A stretch of DNA of 64,000 nucleotides from Paracyclopina nana (lineage: Eukaryota; Arthropoda; Copepoda; Cyclopoida; Cyclopettidae): assembly GCA_019096065.1 (NCBI GenBank), contig JAGUCH010000003.1:9362001-9426000 (forward strand), written 5' to 3'. The notes under the pieces are model-generated. The model saw nothing but the letters and a program-made list of their open reading frames with translations. It was not told the DNA's origin and searched no databases. Positions 39,671-59,555 of the stretch are shown here, one piece after another (the first letter of the stretch is position 1; each line of letters begins with the position of its first letter). The translations under genes were made by a program, and so were the position numbers.

Positions 39671-41830
39671 GCAAAAACTCCTATGGGTGTATGAAAAGAA
39701 CAAGCTCATGATCCCTACAAATTATAATCTCACAAGTCGTATGTTTCATGACCTCTGAGATTTCTTGTAGTGAAATTGTATTGTAACTTCAGGGTACGTA
39801 CCATATTTAAGATCTCCAAAGCCAAAAAAGTAGCATTTTGAAAGGAGTCAAAATGCCTCAGTTTATTGTGATTTTCCTTTGTTTGATATAGCTGCTCAGG
39901 TTTGGGATCAAAGCTGATACATAGTAGGAAGCTTTCTTTCTCCAGAATAATGATAAGGGCACTTGAGCTGCCTTCTGATTAAAAATAATGGGACTTGGAG
40001 GCTATATATCCCTTCTTTTCGAATCTCCTCTCTAAAAGCCTGAGAAATGAAAGGATTTCATTCTCATCAACTTTATATTAGTGTTGCTATAGCGCCATAC
40101 GCTTGATTTCCCATGTGTGGTTTATGACTCAGATTTTTGCGACAAATTGGAAGCCTCTCTTTGACATTGCGCAACCCTTTTTTCTGTAGCAAAATAATTT
40201 TAATGCAGTTTGCAAAATGTAGCTCATAACAGACAAAATATCCTGGCATTTAAAAATTGCGCGAGCATTTCATTGGGAGCAGCCAAATAAGCACTTTTCC
40301 TCTGGCTTGCTTACTCTCCAAATACAAATGTGTACTACTATGCTTTGGTGGGCTCGTTAGATGTTTATTATGACAGTAGTAACCAGTCGCCTAAGTCTGA
40401 AACTGCAATCAACTTACCAACGCAATTTAAAGAATTGAACTCAATGCGAGACGGATCCTTTTCAAGTTTCAACAATCAAGTGATGAGTTTTCCTCGTGCA
40501 TAATCAAAAGGATTCAAATATAGCGACTTCATTGACTATTTGAATAGCTTCTTTTAGTAAGCCTTTTTTGCTGATTAAAGCTAAAAGCTCAGTAGCATCG
40601 TATTGCACGTAGTTACAACAGAGTAATTGTAGTCAAGGTTGCGTGATTATCCAGCAAATTATTGCGTTGAAGAAGCCGTAAGATAAACTAAACCAGTTTT
40701 TAAGCAAGTGTTTTTTATGCGTTCACTTGTACCTTAAATCAGTTTTACGAGGACCATTTTGCAGAAAAAATGTGGTATGAACTTTATAGGAGGGGAATCA
40801 AAATTCTTTAAATGTTGGTTCATGGTCGGAAATTGCAATTTTTAGGAGAGAATGAGATGAAAGACAACAGCTAATAATAAGAATCATCCCGTCCGTCGTC
40901 CTCTTCTCGCTTTATGTGACTGAGGGGGACATAAAATTGGTCCCCAAGTTATTACACAAAAGATCATGAATCACAGTAGACCATCTGGAGCCAAAAAGCA
41001 CCCATGTTCAATAAAAGCAAAAATGCTTGAATAAATATTCTTTAGTGACTTCAAGCTCAACATTGCGGCATATTAAGCAATTTGTAAAAGATCGGGGCTT
41101 TTGAGGTCACACATTCCCACAGTGGTGCGTCAATTCTGTCCTGACACTTTCAACTAGACTCAAGGGAGAATTTTCAATACTGGCTGCCTTTCTCCTCCAA
41201 AATTGGCTTATTTCGAGATAAATCCATGTACGAGGCGTGAATTTTAACATTTTGACTGTCCTATTTTAGTGCCATTCAAATCTTTAAAATATCAAGAACA
41301 AAACCCTGGGAAATCATTTTATTTCGATAAAGAAGAGGACATTTATTGCAACGCTATTATATAGAATTTTTGAGCTCCACATTTGAATTCATGGGTGACG
41401 CACGACATGCTTTTTGGCGTAGCTAATTTTATTGCCGCAACCCCTCTTTCAGCATTTTACTATTATATAGCACATACCACCACCGTCATCAGCATGAACT
41501 GAAAAATCTTTTCTTCTAGTCTGCATACTCAACTGCTTGTTCTATTTGCTCAAGTCGTGACTTATGGGGTGCGTATATCACACCCTGTCCTGACATTTGA
41601 CTGACCCCTGGCTTGTGTTTTGTTTGGACTAAATTAACACCACAGGGTCACTCGTCTTCTTCTTGGCAAGGCAGGAAAAATGCCAACTCATTACTGAGAA
41701 TCCTTTTTTCTTTGGTTGGAGCAAATTCGGTCCTAGGAAGCAATTAACACAACAGTGCAGTTACGTTTACAAAAATCTGAGAGAAGTTTGGAGCTGAAGC
41801 TGTTCAGCACTTCAATAACTTTTGAGGGGC
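39671..41830. other. gene-poor AT-rich sequence
   Basis: No frame of note on either strand and no recognisable domain, RNA gene or repeat boundary. It may include further 5' debris of the oxidase pseudogene (39671-40000), but I could not align any. Confidence 0.5.
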
Positions 41831-41839
41831 TCAAATATG

Positions 41840-42330
41840 CTTTAGTGGAACTGAAAAAAATATTTGCAGAAGTGATGTAACTTTTGTGGAACTGAACTAA
41901 CTTGTACGTATGTGAAACTGAAGTAACTATCAGTGGAACCGAACTTTTCATCTGTGGAACCGTGCCAAATTTCTGTGGAACCTTAGATAACTGCTATGGA
42001 ACCTAAGATAACTGCTATGGAACCGAAGCTCACTTCTGTGGAACCGAAGGTAATTACTTTGGAACCTAAGCTACCTTCTGTGGAACCGAAGCAATCTTCT
42101 GTGAAACTGAAGCAATCTTCTGTGGAACCGAAGCAATCTACTGTGGAACCGAAGCAATCTTCTGTGGAACCGAAGGTAATTACTTTGGATCCTATGCTAC
42201 CTTCTGTGGAACCGAAGCTTACTCTGTGGAACCGAAGCTAACTTCTGTGAAACCGAAGGTAATTTTCTGTTTGATCGTATTTAACCTTATGTGGAACCGA
42301 AGCTAACTTCTGTGGAACCGAAGCTCAGTT
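41840..42330. repeat. 21-bp minisatellite (core TCTGTGGAACCGAAG)
   Basis: Imperfect tandem units of about 21 bp with the core TGTGGAACCGAAGCAATCT, best preserved at 42070-42180 and decaying outwards. Because 21 is a multiple of three, one plus-strand frame stays open (41996-42241) and reads V-E-P-K-Q-S-S repeats, but nothing else supports a gene. Confidence 0.9.
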
Positions 42331-49600: not shown

Positions 49601-49740
49601 GACTCCCTTCAACATCAGTATAATTTTAACAATGGAGAAAACTTGGTCTCTTCAGCAAAAAATCTAGTGTGTAGCTTTTAATTTGAGAAAATGCTCATTG
49701 TCAAGTCTCAATTGTCTCCTATATGCGCGGTATATATAAC
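46660..49740. other. gene-poor AT-rich sequence
   Basis: No recognisable coding, RNA or repeat feature. Short frames at 47083-47487 (minus), 48275-48502 (plus) and 49278-49493 (minus) lack homology. The stretch could be intronic or regulatory. Confidence 0.45.
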
Positions 49741-49914
49741 GTTACTGGGACATAGAATTGCACACCCGGGCTATTGGGACCCGAATGAACACGATCTATT
49801 TTAAGGCCCTTAGGCCTAGAAATTTCAACTTTTTAAATTTTTTTCATAAAATATAGGCCTTCAGGCCCCTCTGGGCCAAATTTCATAAAAATCCAAGGCC
49901 TTCATTTTTTTCAT

Positions 49915-50145
49915 GTTTTATTGGGACATGAGCATGTGCAAATTGCTATTGGGACATCAATCCACATGCACTGTTGGGACAAAAATGTGCAAATTGCTAT
50001 TGGGACATATATGAACATGCACTATTGGGACCAAAATGTGCAAATTGCTAGTGGGACATCAATCCACATGCACTATTGAGACCAACATTATAAAATGCTA
50101 TTGGGACTGAAATGAACATGCACTATTGTGACTAAAATTAACACT
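49915..50145 (+). repeat. irregular direct repeats with TTGGGAC core (left subterminal zone)
   Basis: About eight copies of a unit of the form CTATTGGGACATNAATNNACATGCA spaced 25-35 bp apart, with variants such as GTTGGGACAAAAATGTGCA. The orientation is the same as the left terminal repeat. Confidence 0.8.
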
Positions 50146-50490
50146 TTGGGCCAGTGGCCAGTAGACTTTGGGCCAGTAGACTTTGGGCCAGTAGACTTTG
50201 GGCCAGTAGACTTTGGGCCAGTAGACTTTGGTGCCAATAGACTTTGGGCCAGTAGACTTTGGGCCAGTAGACTTTGGGCCAGTAGACTTTGGGCCAGTAG
50301 ACTTTGGGCCAGTAGACTTTGGGCCAGTAGACTTTGGGCCAGTAGACTTTGGGCCAGTAGACTTTGGGCCAGTAGACTTTGGGCCAGTAGACTTTGGGCC
50401 AGTAGACTTTGGGCCAGTAGACTTTGGGCCAGTAGACTTTGGGCCAGTAGACTTTGGGCCAGTAGACTTTGGGCCAGTAGACTTTGGGCA
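50146..50490. repeat. 15-bp satellite, about 23 copies
   Basis: Nearly perfect head-to-tail units of AGTAGACTTTGGGCC, with one variant (GTGCCAA) at about 50231-50237. Period 15 keeps five of the six frames open, creating frames of 110-207 codons on both strands that encode P-V-D-F-G, S-R-L-W-A, S-T-G-P-K, K-V-Y-W-P or S-L-L-A-Q repeats. These are artefacts of the satellite. Confidence 0.97.
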
Positions 50491-50524
50491 AACAAGCTTA
50501 AAGGAGCTGAATATCACTGAACTG

Positions 50525-50690
50525 TGCATTTTTGTCCCAATAGAAAGAGTGCTTTTCTCCCAATAGAAAGAGTGCTTTTGTCCCAATAAAAAGTGTGCTT
50601 TTGTCCCAATAAAAAGTGTCCTTTTGTCCCAATAAAAAGTGTGCTTTTGTCCCAATAAAAAGTGTGCTTTTGTCCCAATAAGAAAAGCTA
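50525..50690 (-). repeat. 21-bp array carrying GTCCCAATA, about 7 copies
   Basis: Units of TTTTGTCCCAATAAAAAGTG, the inverted orientation of the TTGGGAC core found at the left end. Two of the first units read AATAGAAAGAG instead of AATAAAAAGTG. Confidence 0.9.
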
Positions 50691-50750
50691 TAGAAATTAA
50701 GGAGGAGCCATAAATAGCCAATCATTTAATTACCTCAACAAATCCCCACA

Positions 50751-52768
50751 ATATGGGGTAAAACGATTTACTTTGCCTCACACTAGAAGTCAAGCTGCCT
50801 CAAATTATCAGCCACAACTGACATTTTGACTCAAATTTGACCCTATCAAGAATTCCGAGTTTCCTTAGCAGTTTATAAGTAGAATTACGCGATGCGCAAG
50901 TTTTCGCTCTTGCAAACCAATCATGAGTCAAAAGTTTGACTTTGCCTCACATTTAGAATCCTTTTGCCTCAAATTATTAGCCACTACTGACATTTTGACT
51001 CAAAATTGACCTTATCAGGGATTTCGCGTTTTCTTAGCAGTACATTAGTAGAATTACGCGATGCGCCAGTTTTTGCTCTTGCAAACCAGTCATGAGTCAA
51101 AAGTTTGACTTTGCCTCACATTTTGGTTCCAATTGCCTCAAATTATCAGTCTCTACTGACATTTTGACTCAAAATTGACCATATCAGGGATTTCGCGTTT
51201 TCTTAGCAGTACATTAGTAGAATTACGCGATGCGCAAGATTTGGCTCTAACAAAATCAGAATGTGTCAAAAGTATGACTTTGCCTCACATTTTGAGTCGA
51301 ACTGCCTCAAAATATCAGCCACTACTGACATGTTGACTCAAAATTGACCTTAACAAGGATTTCGCGTTTTCTTAGCAGTACATTAGCAGAATTACGCGAT
51401 GCGCAAGTTTTGGTCTTGAAAACCAATCATGAGTCAAAAGTTTGACTTTGCCTCACATTTAGAATCCAATTGCCTCAAAATATCAGCCACTACTGACATT
51501 TTGACTCAAAATTGACCTTATCAGGGATTTCGCGTTTTCTTAACAATACATTAGTAGAATTACGCGATGCGCAAGTTTTCGGTCTTGCAAACCAATCATG
51601 AGTCAAAAGTTTGACTTTGCCTCACATTTAGAATCCTATTGCCTCAAATTATCAGTCACCACTGACATTTTGACTCAAAATTTACCTTATCAGGAAATTC
51701 GCGTTTTCTTAGCAGTACATTAGTAGAATTACGCGATGCGCCAGTTTTCGCTCTTGCAAACCAATCATGAGTCAAAAGTTTGACTTTGCCTCACATTTAG
51801 AATCATATTGCCTCAAATTATCAGCCACAACTGACATTTTGACTCAAAATTGGCCTTATCAGGAATTTCGCGTTTTCTTAGCAGTACATTAGTAGAATTA
51901 CGCGATGTGCAAGTTTTGGCTCTAGCAAAATCAGAATGTGTCAAAAGTATGACTTTGCCTCACATTTTGAGTCGAATTGCCTCAAAATATCAGCCACTAC
52001 TGACATGTTGACTCAAAATTGACCTTAACAAGGATTTCGCGTTTTCTTAGCAGTACATTAGCAGAATTACGCGATGCGCAAGTTTTCGGTCTTGAAAACC
52101 AATCATGAGTCAAAAGTTTGACTTTGCCTCACATTTAGAATCCAATTGCCTCAAAATATCAGCCACTACTGACATTTTGACTCAAAATTGACCTTATCAG
52201 GGATTTCGCGTTTTCTTAGCAATACATTAGTAGAATTACGCGATGCGCAAGTTTTCGGTCTTGCAAACCAATCATGAGTCAAAAGTTTGACTTTGCCTCA
52301 CATTTAGAATCCTATTGCCTCAAATTATCAGTCACCACTGACATTTTGACTCAAAATTTCCCTTATCAGGAAATTCGCGTTTTCTTAGCAGTACAATAGT
52401 AGAATTACGCGATGTGCCAGTTTTGGCTCTAGCAAAATCAGAATGTGTCAAAAGTATGACTTTGCCTCACATTTTGGGTCCAATTGCCTCAAATTATCAG
52501 TCACTACTGACATTTTGACTCAAAATTTACCTTATCAGGGATTTCGCGTTTTCTTAGCAGTACATTAGTAGAATTACGCGATGCGCAAGATTTGGCTCTA
52601 ACAAAATCAGAATGTGTCAAAAGTATGACTTTGCCTCACATTTTGGGTCCAATTGCCTCAAATTATCAGTCACTACTGACATTTTGACTCAAAATTTACC
52701 TTATCAGGGATTTCGCGTTTTCTTAGCAGTACATTAGTAGAATTACGCGATGCGCAAGATTTGGTCCA
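50751..52768. repeat. 169-bp satellite array, 12 copies
   Basis: The anchor ATTACGCGATG recurs at 50884, 51053, 51222, 51391, 51559, 51728, 51897, 52066, 52235, 52404, 52573 and 52742, a period of 168-169 bp. Each unit contains TTTGCCTCACATTT, TGACATTTTGACTCAAAAT and TTTCGCGTTTTCTTAGCAGT. Two variants of the segment after the anchor exist (CAATCATGAGTCAAAAGTTT and AATCAGAATGTGTCAAAAGT), and their order suggests a four-unit higher-order repeat. Confidence 0.95.
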
Positions 52769-55700
52769 AAATGGTCCCTGAGTCATAAAATGAGTCATAG
52801 ATGGTCAAAGTCTTCAATTTGAGTCATTTAGGTAAACTTGACTCAAGTACCAGAGACATTTCTGAAGTTTGAGTTGCTAGCTTGGAAAAGTAGGAAAATG
52901 CACACTCTTTGTTGGGACATTCCTTCAAAGAGCCTTTTTGCCTCAAGTGTACTTGACATTATGTTAAAAGATGGTCCAAAATGGTCCCAGAGTCATAAAA
53001 TGAGTCATAGATGGTCAAAGTCTTCAATTTGAGTCATTTAGGCAAACTTGAGTCATGTACCAGAATCATTTCTGAAGTTTTAGTTTCTAGCTTGGCCAAG
53101 TAGAAAAATGCACACTCTTTGTTGGGACATTCCTTCAAAGAGCCTTTTTGCCTCAAGTGTACTTGACATTATGTTAAAAGATGGTCCAAAATGGTCCCTG
53201 AGTCATAAAATGAGTCATAGATGGTCAAAGTCTTCAATTTGAGTCATTTAGGCAAACTTGACTCATGTACCAGAATCATTTCTGAAGTTTGAGTTGCTAG
53301 CTTGGACAAGTAGGAAAATGCACACCCTTTATTGGGACATTCCTTCAAAGAGCCTTTTTGCCTCAAGTGTACTTGACATTATGTTAAAAGATGGTCCAAA
53401 ATGGTCCCTGAGTCATAAAATGAGTCATAGATGGTCAAAGTCTTCAATTTGAGTCATTTAGGCAAACTTGACTCATGTACCAGAATCATTTCTGAAATTT
53501 GAGTAGCTAGCTTGGACAAGTAGAAAAATGCACACTCTTTGTTGGGACATTCCTTCAAAGAGCCTTTTTGCCTCAAGTGTACTTGACATTATGTTAAAAG
53601 ATGGTCCAAAATGGTCCCTGAGTCATAAAATGAGTCATAGATGGTCAAAGTCTTCAATTTGAGTCATTTAGGTAAACTTGACTCAAGTACCAGAGACATT
53701 TCTGAAGTTTGAGTTGCTAGCTTGGAAAAGTAGGAAAATGCACACTCTTTGTTGGGACATTCCTTCAAAGAGCCTTTTTGCCTCAAGTGGACTTGACATA
53801 ATGTTAAAAGATGGTCCAAAATGGTCCCTGAGTCATAAAATGAGTCATAGATGGTCAAAGTCTTCAATTTGAGTCATTTAGGCAAACTTGACTCAAGTAC
53901 CAGAATCATTTCTGAAGTTTGAGTTGCTAGCTTGGACAAGTAGAAAATGCACACTCTTTGTTGGGACATTACTTTGGTTGCTTGGCCAAGTAGGAAATTG
54001 CACACTCTTTGTTGGGACATTCCTTCAAAGAGCCTTTTTGCCTCAAGTAGACTTGACATATTGTTAAAAGGTGGTCCAAAATGGTCCCTGAGTCATAAAA
54101 TGAGTCATAGATGGTCAAAGTCTTCAATTTGCATCATTTAGACAAACTTGACTCATGTACCAGAAACATTTCTGAAGTTTGAGTTGCTAGCTTGGACAAG
54201 TAGGAAAATGCACACCCTTTATTGGGACATTCCTTCAAAGAGCCTTTTTGCCTCAAGTGTACTTGACATTATGTTAAAAGATGGTCCAAAATGGTCCCTG
54301 AGTCATAAAATGAGTCAAAGATGGTCAAAGTCTTCAATTTGAGTCATTTAGGCAAACTTGACTCATGTACCAGAATCATTTCTGAAATTTGAGTAGCTAG
54401 CTTGGACAAGTAGAAAAATGCACACTCTTTGTTGGGACATTCCTTCAAAGAGCCTTTTTCCTCGAGTGGACTTGACATAATGTTAAAAGATGGTCCAAAA
54501 TGGTCCCAGAGTCATTAAATGAGTCATAGATGGTCAAAGTCTTCAATTTGAGCTATAGGCAAACTTGACTCAAGTACCAGAATCATTTCTGAAGTTTGAG
54601 TTTCTAGCCTGGTCAAGTAGAAAAATGCACACTCTTTGTTGAGACATTCTTTCAAAGAGCCTTTTTGCCTCAAGTAGACTTGACATATTGTTAAAAGGTG
54701 GTCCAAAATGGTCCCTGAGTCATAAAATAAGTCATAGATGGTCAAAGTCTTCAATTTGCATCATTTAGACAAACTTGACTCATGTACCAGAAACATTTCT
54801 GAAGTTTGAGTTGCTAGCTTGGACAAGTAGGAAAATGCACACCCTTTATTGGGACATTCCTTCAAAGAGCCTTTTTGCCTCAAGTGTACTTGACATTATG
54901 TTAAAAGATGGTCCAAAATGGTCCCTGAGTCATAAAATGAGTCAAAGATGGTCAAAGTCTTCAATTTGAGTCATTTAGGCAAACTTGACTCATGTACCAG
55001 AATCATTTCTGAAATTTGAGTAGCTAGCTTGGACAAGTAGAAAAATGCACACTCTTTGTTGGGACATTCCTTCAAAGAGCCTTTTTGCCTCAAGTGTACT
55101 TGACATTATGTTAAAAGATGGTCCAAAATGGTCCCAGAGTCATAAAATGAGTCATAGATGGTCAAAGTCTTCAATTTGAGACATTTAGGCAAACTTGACT
55201 CATGTACCAGAATCATTTCTGAAGTTTGAGTTTCTAGCTTGGCCAAGTAGAAAAATGCACACTCTTTGTTGGGACATTCCTTCAAAGAGCCTTTTTGCCT
55301 CAAGTGTACTTGACATTATGTTAAAAGATGGTCCAAAATGGTCCCAGAGTCATAAAATGAGTCATAGATGGTCAAAGTCTTCAATTTGAGTCATTTAGGC
55401 AAACTTGAGTCATGTACCAGAATCATTTCTGAAGTTTTAGTTTCTAGCTTGGCCAAGTAGAAAAATGCACACTCTTTGTTGGGACATTCCTTCAAAGAGC
55501 CTTTTTGCCTCAAGTGTACTTGACATTATGTTAAAAGATGGTCCAAAATGGTCCCTGAGTCATAAAATGAGTCATAGATGGTCAAAGTCTTCAATTTGAG
55601 TCATTTAGGTAAACTTGACTCAAGTACCAGAGACATTTCTGAAGTTTGAGTTGCTAGCTTGGACAAGTAGGAAAATGCACACTCTTTGTTGGGACATTCC

Positions 55701-56250
55701 TTCAAAGAGCCTTTTTGCCTCAAGTGGACTTGACATATTGTTAAAAGATGGTCCAAAATGGTCCCTGAGTCATAAAATGAGTCATAGATGGTCAAAGTCT
55801 TTAATTTGAGTCATTTAGGCAAACTTGAGTCATGTACCAGAATCATTTCTGAAGTTTGAGTTTCTAGCTTGGCCAAGTAGAAAAATGCACACTCTTTGTT
55901 GGGACATTCCTTCAAAGAGCCTTTTTGCCTCGAGTGGACTTGACATAATGTTAAAAGATGGTCCAAAATGGTCCCTGAGTCATAAAATGAGTCATAGATG
56001 GTCAAAGTCTTCAATTTGAGTCATTTAGGCAAACTTGACTCAAGTACCAGAAACATTTCTAGCTTGGCCAAGTAGAAAAATGCACACTCTTTGTTGGGAC
56101 ATTCCTTCAAAAAGCCTTTTTGCCTCAAGTGGACTTGACATTATGTTCAAAGATAATCCAAAATGGTCCCTTAGTCAAAAAATGAGTCACAAAAAGTTAC
56201 TGAGCATAATTTGTGTCAGTTCTGCTATGTCAGCTGTATGGCTTGAGTAA
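52769..56250. repeat. 210-bp satellite array, 16 copies
   Basis: The anchor AGCCTTTTTGCCTC recurs at 52931, 53141, 53351, 53561, 53771, 54031, 54241, 54451, 54658, 54868, 55078, 55288, 55498, 55708, 55918 and about 56112. The period is 210 bp except one unit about 50 bp longer (53941-54000 partly duplicated) and three shorter ones. Period 210 is divisible by three, which explains the recurrent 64-codon frames on both strands. Each unit holds GTTGGGACATTCC plus several TGAGTCA/TGACTCA heptamers. Confidence 0.96.
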
Positions 56251-56703
56251 CTTGTTCAAGGCAAATAATGCACACTCCTTGTTGGGACATTTTAAAAATT
56301 CCAGTTATTCTAAAGCTTCAAGACTTTTTAATTAATAAACCTATGTTTTAGTGAGCTTATTTGTCCCTTTTTATCCTTAATACTTAATTTGACTTAATTT
56401 CATGAGTCTACGTTAAGTCCTAATAATTCATGTTTATTTTCAAAAATGCACATGCTTTATTGGGACAAATGCACACGTTTTAGTGGGAAAGGTTGCGTGA
56501 TAATCAAAAATTAAAAATAGAGCATGTGCATTTTTTGCAATTTTCATGACACTATTGGGACATTTTAGTTTTAGGTTTAAATTAATCAGGGGGGTCCAAA
56601 TAGCCAGAAAAACACGTTTTTAGAAAATGTCCCAATAGCCCGTCCCAATAGCCCAAGATCGCATTTTTTATGTAGCGCTATTAGGACGCCATGTCCCAGT
56701 AAC

Positions 56704-59555
56704 CGTCATATGAGGAACACCATGCTTGACTTTTGGGTCTCTTGAGCTGAAACAAAGCATGTAATTGTATAAAGATAGGATTTCCCATACTTGCCACAAG
56801 ACATGTACACAGCACAAATCATGACAGAAACACTGCTACAACAAAAGTTATCTGATTTTTGCCAAGCAAAAATGCCAATGGGAGGTCTTTTTCTTCTTCT
56901 CAGCAGAAAATGTGAATCTTGACACCATGTGCACTGGCTGAAAAAGGTCAAATGACATTCTTCACCTTGAAATTTTAATTTCAATCATATTTTCAGTTCA
57001 TCTTGAGACTAGCTGGCAAATGGGAGAAATGGGCGGCTCCAAAACTCTGCAAATTCCATTTGTACCAGTATTTTAAATGCAAAAAACTTGGTCATGCCTT
57101 CTTGGCTTGGAATCTTTTCCCATGATGCCTTGTTGTAAACTTGTAAATTAATTTATGATTGCTTTAAGCTTGGTTGCAGCCATTCTTTTGAACTGAAAGA
57201 TTTGAAAAAATCAGCTAATTTTTCTTTAGCTGAAAGCAAAATAACATTAGCATTTCATCATCTGAATTCGGTTGAATTTGGCAATTTAGGGCAGTATTTT
57301 TGGCTGCTCATTAATGGAATGTTTGCTCCTATTTAGTGTCAGATTTCTAGTCATGGAGGTCAAATAGAGTGTAACGCTTTTATTTTGGCAGCTGCGGTTT
57401 TCCATTGATGTGCCATGTTGATGGTCAACAATCCCTTGAAGCGTATCGATTTGAGTAGCATTATAATGAGAATGATGTGCATGTGGTCAGAATAACCAGA
57501 CTGATGATCAATCTTTTACTCATAATATTATCACACTCTATAAGCTTGCATAGGAGTAGCAGCAGTAACTTTGACCCCAAGGGTGCAATGATTCAAAATT
57601 GCACGTGCATACTCAATTTCCGTCAAGAGTACTCCATCACTTTGTGTCATACTTTCCTACATACCACTCTATGAGGCTTAAAATAGCTTTTTCGTAAGAT
57701 GTTCATGGGTGAATTCATGTCAAAATTTCATTTAGAGTATTTGCTGTATTGAATGTCTCTCATAAAAATCTATTTTTGGGAAGACTAAAATTGCGTCAAA
57801 AATAGAAGCTTAATTTTTTTGCTATAGTAAAGAAGGATTATTCTGCAGAAGGCAAACAAAAAGTTTATGGGCAGAATAAGGAGCCAAATTGGCTGATGCC
57901 AGCTAGAGAGTGTGAGATCGGAAATGCTAAAATTACTCTAGTCCGGTGTCAGACTGTTTACTTTAGGGATTTCTCAGCTCCCAGGAAGAACTGAGTAAAC
58001 ATAATCTTTGCGAGCATAGAAATCTATGGAAAACCTCGTTGGACGAGTCTGAAAGCTGCAGCTGAGTTTTTCTCAGCAGCAGCAACTAAAGCAAATTATC
58101 ATAAAAAGGTATAGGAAACAATGGGTGACTAATTTGAATTGTAATTCTTTCTGAATTGCGAATGACGTCATGCCAAGAGATCAACTCTTCTAGCAATTTA
58201 TTACTACTGTACAATAATGGTTGGCTTCCATTTGCACCGATTAGTTCCACATCCACTTGGAACATTCCGAGCTGAAATAAAGCTGAATTTTTAGCACCAG
58301 CATAGCTCACTAGTGCTATATTATAAGCTCTGTGATGCTTATCTCAAGTTGTCTCGTCTTACAAAACTACTAAGGCATCATGACATATGTTAAAATCCCA
58401 AACATTTGGCACTGACCCAAAGAATGTTGCACTCCTTTAATAGCAAAATGGTACTTTATACAGTGCTCATTTGAGAAAAAAAAATAGTGTCACATAGTAC
58501 ATATATTTTGACAACTTTCAATTAAGTTTTCAGATTGTTTATGAATTCTGAGCATCGAATTAAAAATAACTCAATTGCACTCCCTACATATGCTTAACAT
58601 TTATTTATAGTGGTCATTTGGAAAATTAGCATTAAGAAAATGCACATACTACTGCATGCCACTTATGGTAGTTCTGACCTCGATTTTTCCCCCATGGAGA
58701 TGCAATGACCCTTAAGGCAGCAATGGTTGTACACGAAAAACTAAAAGGGATCGTGACCACATCAGTCTTTTGCCATATTGAGTTTTACATTGCCTCAAAG
58801 AAGCTTGTTAAGCAAAGATGTAAAGCAACATTGCTGGCAAGGCCAACATGAGATCAAAGCCAAAAAAGTTCCTTTTCCAGAACTAGCCATCCTCGCTTTT
58901 GCTCGCATAATTCACTTAGCCTAAAATGAACCGCATATTTTTTGGACTTACAGAAAGAAGCTTCTAAAAAAGTTTGTCAAAGTGAAAGCCTGACTTGTGT
59001 GCTACATGAGAAAAGATGGAAGATGCTTGCAGTATGCCTTATGTGGAAGTAGCTTGCAATTTATGATCCGATCTGTTTTGCTGAACATGGAAAGTTAGTG
59101 AGAGATTCTGGGGCCAAGACAAACATACATGGATCCATTTGAGCTTCATTAGCTTAATCAGGCACAACTATCTTGGTCATTAATCAGCTGCTGCTAATGC
59201 TGCTAGCTGGTGGGGCTTTGTAGTAGACAAATCAACCTGCTCACATATGATCCCACTTGAACTGGGATCCCCATCAGGTCAACCTACTGCAACAACAAAT
59301 GTGGCAAAAAATAGAGTGAACATCATTAGCAGCTTGAGGAGGAGGAAGGAAAATGGCGGGGGCGTAATGGTCATCTACCTGGCATGTATGCTGCAATGTG
59401 CTACTATTTGCTCAGGAGTGATCAGGAAAAGGGTGGAAAATGGCCAATGAGATGCACACAGCCTCTTCCTCTCATGTTTCTTTGTTCGCAAAATCCCTGC
59501 TGCTGCTGCCTTTGACCTACATCAATTTGCATGCTGCGAGGCTTCTTGTTTACAT
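56704..59555. other. gene-poor AT-rich sequence
   Basis: Frames at 56706-56984 (minus), 57477-57674 (plus), 58086-58310 (minus) and 59247-59450 (plus) have no recognisable homology or consistent splice context. No RNA gene was seen. Confidence 0.45.

Follow-up and report, generated by a model that had tools for sequence, protein, structure and literature searches.

HINEs of Drosophila (DINE-1) and of a mite (HINE-Mo) are described as elements with central repeats and subterminal repeats that generate no target-site duplication (TSD) (PMC4067079), and Cg_HINE of oysters contains satellite-like arrays, one or at most two per element (PMC7492417). Helitron2 is described with asymmetric terminal inverted repeats of 8-15 bp, a TTTT on the 5' side of the insertion, T or C after it and likewise no TSD (PMC3627910), while Tetris and the foldback elements of Drosophila are transposons that carry satellite-related arrays (PMC7492417). 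The stretch of 64,000 nucleotides from the copepod Paracyclopina nana that was analysed here (contig JAGUCH010000003.1, C3:9362001-9426000; hereafter the window) contains a 7002 bp element, E01, which belongs to a real, recently active family of satellite-carrying transposons that is new in detail and known in kind. TSD-less, non-autonomous satellite carriers have been found in flies, a mite and oysters, so that the term 'undescribed', used in an initial annotation of the window, holds for the family as far as the literature surveyed shows, and not for the kind.

The family was traced by searching the genome (92 Mb, 10 contigs) with the left 300 bp and the right 300 bp of the element, which match at 23 and 17 places respectively. 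These matches form 16 full pairs (E01-E16, the window copy included) of 3448-21712 bp on seven contigs, all with the same relative orientation of the ends. The flanks of the 16 paired copies are unrelated when compared by eye, and the extent of E01 is set by the sequence that is common to copies in such flanks. Paired copies are 95-100% identical to the window copy over the first 215 bp and, with the exception of E11, over the last 520 bp; E08 and E09 differ at only 15 positions, all within the 169-bp array region. The initial annotation had proposed paired inverted ends bounding a non-autonomous mobile element with arrays inside, and the 16 pairs of 3.4-21.7 kb bear this out: the unit is a mobile element. 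An immobile family of segmental duplications or satellite arrays whose edges converge could draw on the duplication-prone nature of arrays and on a duplicated block in E11. It is nevertheless extremely improbable, since the 16 copies on seven contigs begin and end at the same base in unrelated flanks, and it is refuted by clean empty paralogs for two copies.

These empty paralogs came from a search of the genome in which the two flanks of each of 15 copies, all but E11, were joined and used as queries. E12 sits in a high-copy repeat for which 38 matches crossing the junction are listed, and 18 of the 18 inspected read CAC^T (^ marks the point of insertion). E14 has two neighbouring empty copies, both inspected, which read GGAC^CT. 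For E12 and E14 alike the occupied site equals the empty site plus the element and no duplicated base is required, while none of the TSD lengths and offsets accommodates all of the 15 testable copies; a consistent target duplication, which had been expected, is thus absent. The best short repeat of the flanks is a shared CAC (10/15 at k = 3), which is shared because the target itself reads CWC (W is A or T) and the right end of the element is CAC. If the triplet to the left of the element is numbered -25 to -23 and the base after the right junction +18, then C is found at -25 in 16/17 left flanks (p 7e-11), A or T at -24 in 16/17 and C at -23 in 17/17, and +18 is C in 11, T in three and A in one of 15 copies. 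In E10 and E16 the flanking base at -24 on the left and that at +18 on the right both differ from the element, so that only a single base is ambiguous and the junction is fixed to about 1 bp. Left junctions retain target bases and right junctions retain element bases, without mixing. The target is 5'-CWC^Y (Y is a pyrimidine), and insertion without target duplication is proven at two independent sites.

The two extreme ends of the element are unlike each other (CTATATG... versus ...GAGGAACAC), the forward strand reading CTATATG... / ...GGAACAC and the reverse strand GTGTTCC... / ...CATATAG. The right-end 18-mer CCGTCATATGAGGAACAC is exact in 15 of the 16 paired copies, the exception being the truncated E11. 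The perfect 13-bp inverted repeats GTTACTGGGACAT and the inner inverted motifs GGGCTATTGGGAC of the initial annotation were confirmed. However, positions 49741 and 56703, which it took for the ends of the element, lie 22 bp (left) and 17 bp (right) inside the true ends, and the 13-bp repeats are therefore subterminal rather than terminal. They are perfect in 15/16 paired copies, E16 having one mismatch in the right repeat. The 13-mer exceeds chance, with 40 occurrences in the genome, of which 32 lie at the ends of E01-E17, versus 2 for a reversed control pattern. Of the 8 other matches, none of which has TTGGGAC within 600 bp, two are singletons and six belong to one unrelated, near-identical repeat (L043-L047, L049) with a chance occurrence of GTTACTGGGACATTCG.

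The TSD-less insertion and its exact junction argue against canonical serine or tyrosine recombination and against ordinary DDE transposition. Serine recombinases use a 2-bp crossover dinucleotide, and an element moved in this way (IS607-type) would be in keeping with the lack of a TSD and with the CC (GG on the other strand) seen at the junction of most copies. It is very unlikely, as neither E10 nor E16 allows element and target to have a 2-bp crossover in common, short of repair that restores one and the same side every time, and as the base at +18 is not C in 4/15 copies. A non-autonomous element served by TSD-less DDE cut-and-paste, with a flush cut in the target and recognition of the subterminal repeats, would resemble Spy, which is described as having no TSD and a fixed target (PMC4482050), and would account for the inner inverted motifs and for the symmetry of the 13-bp inverted repeats. 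This is unlikely given that the target is CWC^Y and not AAATTT, that the extreme ends are dissimilar with the repeats 22 and 17 bp inward, and that the motif common to left flank and right end is found on one strand only.

A non-autonomous Crypton-like element, for which a tyrosine recombinase would excise a circle and integrate it by exchange between a CAC(C) junction and a matching CWCY target, is quite improbable. It would explain the absence of a TSD, the inverted repeats near both ends and the short homology of target and right end, which recalls the target-matching terminal direct repeats described for Cryptons (PMC3212892). However, tyrosine recombinases are described there with overlaps of 6-8 bp, versus at most 1 bp in two copies here with no mixing of bases, and there is no constant terminal direct repeat of 4-6 bp, CAC being common to left flank and right end in only 10/15. 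Phage_integrase has 0 matches in the genome in a search that detected 14/14 controls, although divergent tyrosine recombinases could be missed. DUF3504 is found only at two loci (L081, C4:618476-619090; L082, C7:1824549-1825263), which have no sequence in common with the element and resemble multi-exon genes with MYM-type fingers. Both look like domesticated host genes, putatively ZMYM-like. Two inverted 13-bp 'arms' on either side of a core (CCGTCATATGAGG / CCTATATGCGCGG), considered as a tyrosine-recombinase site, align by eye only with two indels and were not used.

The TSD-less CWC^Y junction fits single-strand nick-and-join (HUH or rolling-circle) transposition. We infer single-strand nicking after CWC from a junction exact to 1 bp, the lack of a TSD, the unlike ends and a motif that, on one strand, the left flank has in common with the right end. 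At a probability of about one half, the element works like a rolling-circle element moved by an HUH enzyme, for which a Helitron-type Rep-helicase supplied in trans is the likeliest candidate; membership of the enzyme is unproven. Such an enzyme would nick one strand after CWC in the left flank and after the terminal CAC of the element on the right, and the nicked strand would be peeled off or replicated, perhaps via a circle with a CAC^C junction, predicted to read GAGGAACAC joined directly to CTATATGCG. Joining of the freed strand into a nicked CWC^Y target would duplicate nothing, and the predicted empty site of the window copy is AATTGTCTC followed by CATGCTTGAC with no base lost or gained. 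The inverted GTTACTGGGACAT repeats and the iterated GCACA...TTGGGAC motifs are putative binding sites for the enzyme or a host factor, and slippage or unequal exchange inside the element would alter the copy number of the arrays, with the composite being copied in its entirety. By analogy, the CWC/CAC motif 5' of both presumed nick points on one strand parallels the insertion of Helitron2 after TTTT. IS200/IS605 elements follow a comparable logic, in that the target has a short motif on the 5' side of the left end which matches a right-end motif, and no TSD is formed; unlike the element described here these are bacterial, no terminal hairpin is shown for it, and a profile search of the genome gave 0 matches to Y1_Tnp.

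Candidate enzymes reside in the genome. Helitron_like_N has seven matches, five of them above the cut-off, all on contig C2 and one within an open frame of 1443 aa; the Rep-helicase genes also have a PIF1 helicase, and a ubiquitin-hydrolase domain lies in a neighbouring frame. The matches form two clusters at 17.15-17.26 Mb and 14.49-14.66 Mb, and two copies have 171-bp tandem arrays upstream. E04 lies between two resident Helitrons, 3.9 kb after one open frame and 7.6 kb before the next, possibly by chance, and another Helitron Rep match is 36 kb away from the mini copy E18.

Several observations weigh against a Helitron-type enzyme. Genome searches with both ends found no autonomous copy and no Rep-helicase with these ends, so that the autonomous relative anticipated by the initial annotation did not turn up. 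Consistent with this, the right-end 18-mer, allowing up to 2 mismatches, occurs only in 15 copies and at one uninspected place with 2 mismatches, and GGGCTATTGGGAC is confined to known copies (51 genome matches). One candidate autonomous copy, at C2:10.73M, proved to be an old left end that another repeat interrupts, with inner open reading frames that read as ordinary genes. For the resident C2 Helitrons, considered as partners, no termini could be defined in their repeat-rich region. The target is neither AT nor T-rich, unlike those of described Helitrons and Helentrons, and the subterminal repeats stand 22 bp (left) and 17 bp (right) from the ends, which is not the spacing described for HINEs. 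The terminal hairpin of Helitrons and HINEs is unsupported, the terminal pieces giving z of -0.7 to +1.2 with only subterminal stretches folding well; hairpins seen by eye (left TATATRC/GTATATR; right, the repeat with GTCCTA) do not beat shuffled sequence and were dropped as evidence.

Like HINEs and Helentrons as described (PMC4067079, PMC7492417), the element is non-coding, lacks a TSD and holds central arrays; such arrays are found in 16/16 copies here and are not required in all HINEs. Its subterminal inverted repeats of 13 bp compare with 12-15 bp reported for HINEs (11-12 bp in oyster) in the same accounts. Unlike the element, HINEs as described there insert at TT or in T-rich sites, and their 3' subterminal repeat is followed by a palindrome, whereas here the site is CWC^Y and no such palindrome is demonstrable; the five kinds of array and the 22/17-bp repeat spacing are further differences. 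Neither the 5'-TC...CTRR-3' ends nor the A/T insertion of canonical Helitrons was found. With Helitron2, as described (PMC3627910), the element shares asymmetrically placed inverted repeats in the 8-15 bp range, a fixed motif 5' of the insertion, a pyrimidine after it and the lack of a TSD, but it has CWC in place of TTTT and neither the hairpins at both ends nor a 5' repeat 0-2 bp from the end. In foldback elements the arrays make up the inverted arms, whereas here all arrays are interior and direct. Because target, ends and terminal palindrome differ from the defining features tested, the element is not filed as a Helitron or Helentron. It may instead represent a distinct eukaryotic lineage of single-strand-transferring transposons that lack a terminal hairpin and nick with a specificity of their own, 5'-CWC^Y. 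The GCACA...TTGGGAC sites in three satellites would then be arrays of binding sites and satellite growth part of the replication strategy rather than passive cargo, a possibility that we put forward only tentatively.

The layout of E01 is given in Table 1, with array limits, units and copy numbers from Tandem Repeats Finder (TRF). The array order 51/25-15-23-169-210 is constant in 16/16 paired copies and copy number varies. There is no credible protein gene inside E01, in agreement with the initial annotation, as the open reading frames of at least 120 aa (130, 135 and 207 aa) each arise from translation across the 15-bp repeat. On the + strand of E01 TTGGGAC is present 26 times and on the - strand 8 times, versus a mean of 0.6 in 300 mononucleotide shuffles, mostly as part of a bipartite GCACA/GCATG...TTGGGAC motif in the 51-, 23- and 210-bp units. 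That the arrays arose by growth of the terminal motif, as first suggested, is plausible for these three kinds of unit (51/25, 23 and 210 bp), the 23-bp unit having first been taken for 21 bp, and fails for the 15-bp and 169-bp units, from which TTGGGAC is absent.

Units of the 210-bp array are 96.4% identical within a copy versus 93.4% between copies, and the arrays therefore homogenise in place. Functional conservation of TTGGGACA was considered for the 169 units with a length of exactly 210 bp among 192 extracted units of 205-214 bp, the other 23 being excluded on length; its value of 0.993 versus a mean of 0.960 is not significant, 17/203 8-bp windows being equally conserved. Among at least 292 matches to the 210-bp unit listed, all lie inside known copies (read by eye). 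The 169-bp satellite has 21 further places among at least 244 matches listed, at about 80% identity, and both of those inspected (L050, C2:1036500-1042500; L051, C5:446500-451500) lie in a different, foldback-type element, in which inverted arrays of a 9-bp unit flank a 169-bp array about 80% identical to that of the window. In L051 outer terminal inverted repeats are visible (CAGTATTGGGCGAGGACTGCATTCCCAGCC...). Because L050 and L051 carry it within foldback-type structures, this one satellite rides in two unrelated transposon families. The idea that the element is a seed of dispersed satellites was not upheld by these matches.

Table 1. Features of the window copy E01 (positions in the window).
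Feature	Position	Strand	Remark
Whole element E01	49719..56720	+	extent common to copies with unrelated flanks
Target-derived CWC triplet (CTC here), directly left of element	49716..49718	+	target origin shown by E12 and E14 empty sites
Left terminal 22 bp, outside the boundary first reported	49719..49740	+	common to copies, unique flanks beyond
Left subterminal inverted repeat GTTACTGGGACAT	49741..49753	+	
Inner GGGCTATTGGGAC motif	49768..49780	+	51 genome matches, all inside E01-E18 by position
AGGCC-palindrome-rich left subterminal region	49799..49908	+	single-stranded DNA folding better than shuffles, z = -3.9 (element positions 81-190)
51/25-bp direct-repeat array with CTATTGGGAC	49934..50143	+	TRF
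15-bp array GGCCAGTAGACTTTG, 22 copies	50156..50489	+	TRF
23-bp array with GTCCCAATA, motif inverted	50530..50681	+	TRF
169-bp array, 11.8 copies	50770..52762	+	TRF; ~80% relatives elsewhere in genome
210-bp array, 16.2 copies, one TTGGGACA per unit	52762..56189	+	TRF
Right subterminal stem-loop, 15-bp stem CTATTGGGACATTTT / AAAATGTCCCAATAG	56552..56638	+	last 200 bp z = -2.5
Two tandem inverted GGGCTATTGGGAC motifs	56629..56654	-	at 56629 and 56642
Right subterminal inverted repeat GTTACTGGGACAT	56691..56703	-	
Right terminal 17 bp CGTCATATGAGGAACAC, final CAC resembling target triplet	56704..56720	+	

Several copies depart from this layout. E04 has an additional small 15/23 block. E11 (C7:5725963-5747638) lacks the last 14 bp and owes its 21.7 kb to a nested long terminal repeat (LTR) retrotransposon and to an array block that is duplicated and holds an inverted-repeat insertion. 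The retrotransposon, putatively gypsy-like as judged by eye from its frames, lies between the 51-bp and 15-bp arrays, and the inverted-repeat insertion of about 490 bp occurs twice within the duplicated 210-bp array block. E17 is an older copy with a left end that is 88% identical, the five arrays in the same order and no right end, and L038 is an 88% fragment with the first four arrays and no 210-bp match in the stretch inspected. E18 (L037, C2:14458106-14458605), about 500 bp long, consists of subterminal parts of both ends without any array and is an array-free form resembling miniature inverted-repeat transposable elements (MITE-like). Unpaired matches number 7/23 for the left end (E17, E18 and five others) and 1/17 for the right end (E18); the excess of left ends would suit a transfer that starts at the left, and decay explains it equally well. 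Element positions 2-4 have been substituted six times in the left ends of E10, E12, E13 and E15 (4/16 copies), always by C, while the first 215 bp of these copies hold no more than one further change. Of the 4 copies with a base other than C at +18, three belong to this group, and the substitutions at positions 2-4 may mark error-prone repair at insertion. The surroundings of E01 in the window hold animal genes, e.g. SIX1, BIR and P450, and, at 41814-42325, an array of its own made of about 20 copies of a degenerate 21-bp unit (TGTGGAACCGAAGCTAACTTC).

How satellite DNA scatters through euchromatin is an open question, for which sixteen near-identical carriers together with exact empty sites provide an unusually clean case. 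Dispersal, in which the whole unit moves without a TSD, is here separable from array growth, in which copy number changes within the unit. CWC^Y makes a precise and testable prediction of the nick site for whichever enzyme moves the element, and the foldback-type element that shares one satellite in the same genome opens the transfer of satellites between transposon families to study. A limited search of the open-licence literature turned up no other multi-satellite carrier of this kind with five arrays in one element. An element with five arrays in fixed order and no target duplication suggests a rolling-circle-like transport of satellite DNA around the genome.

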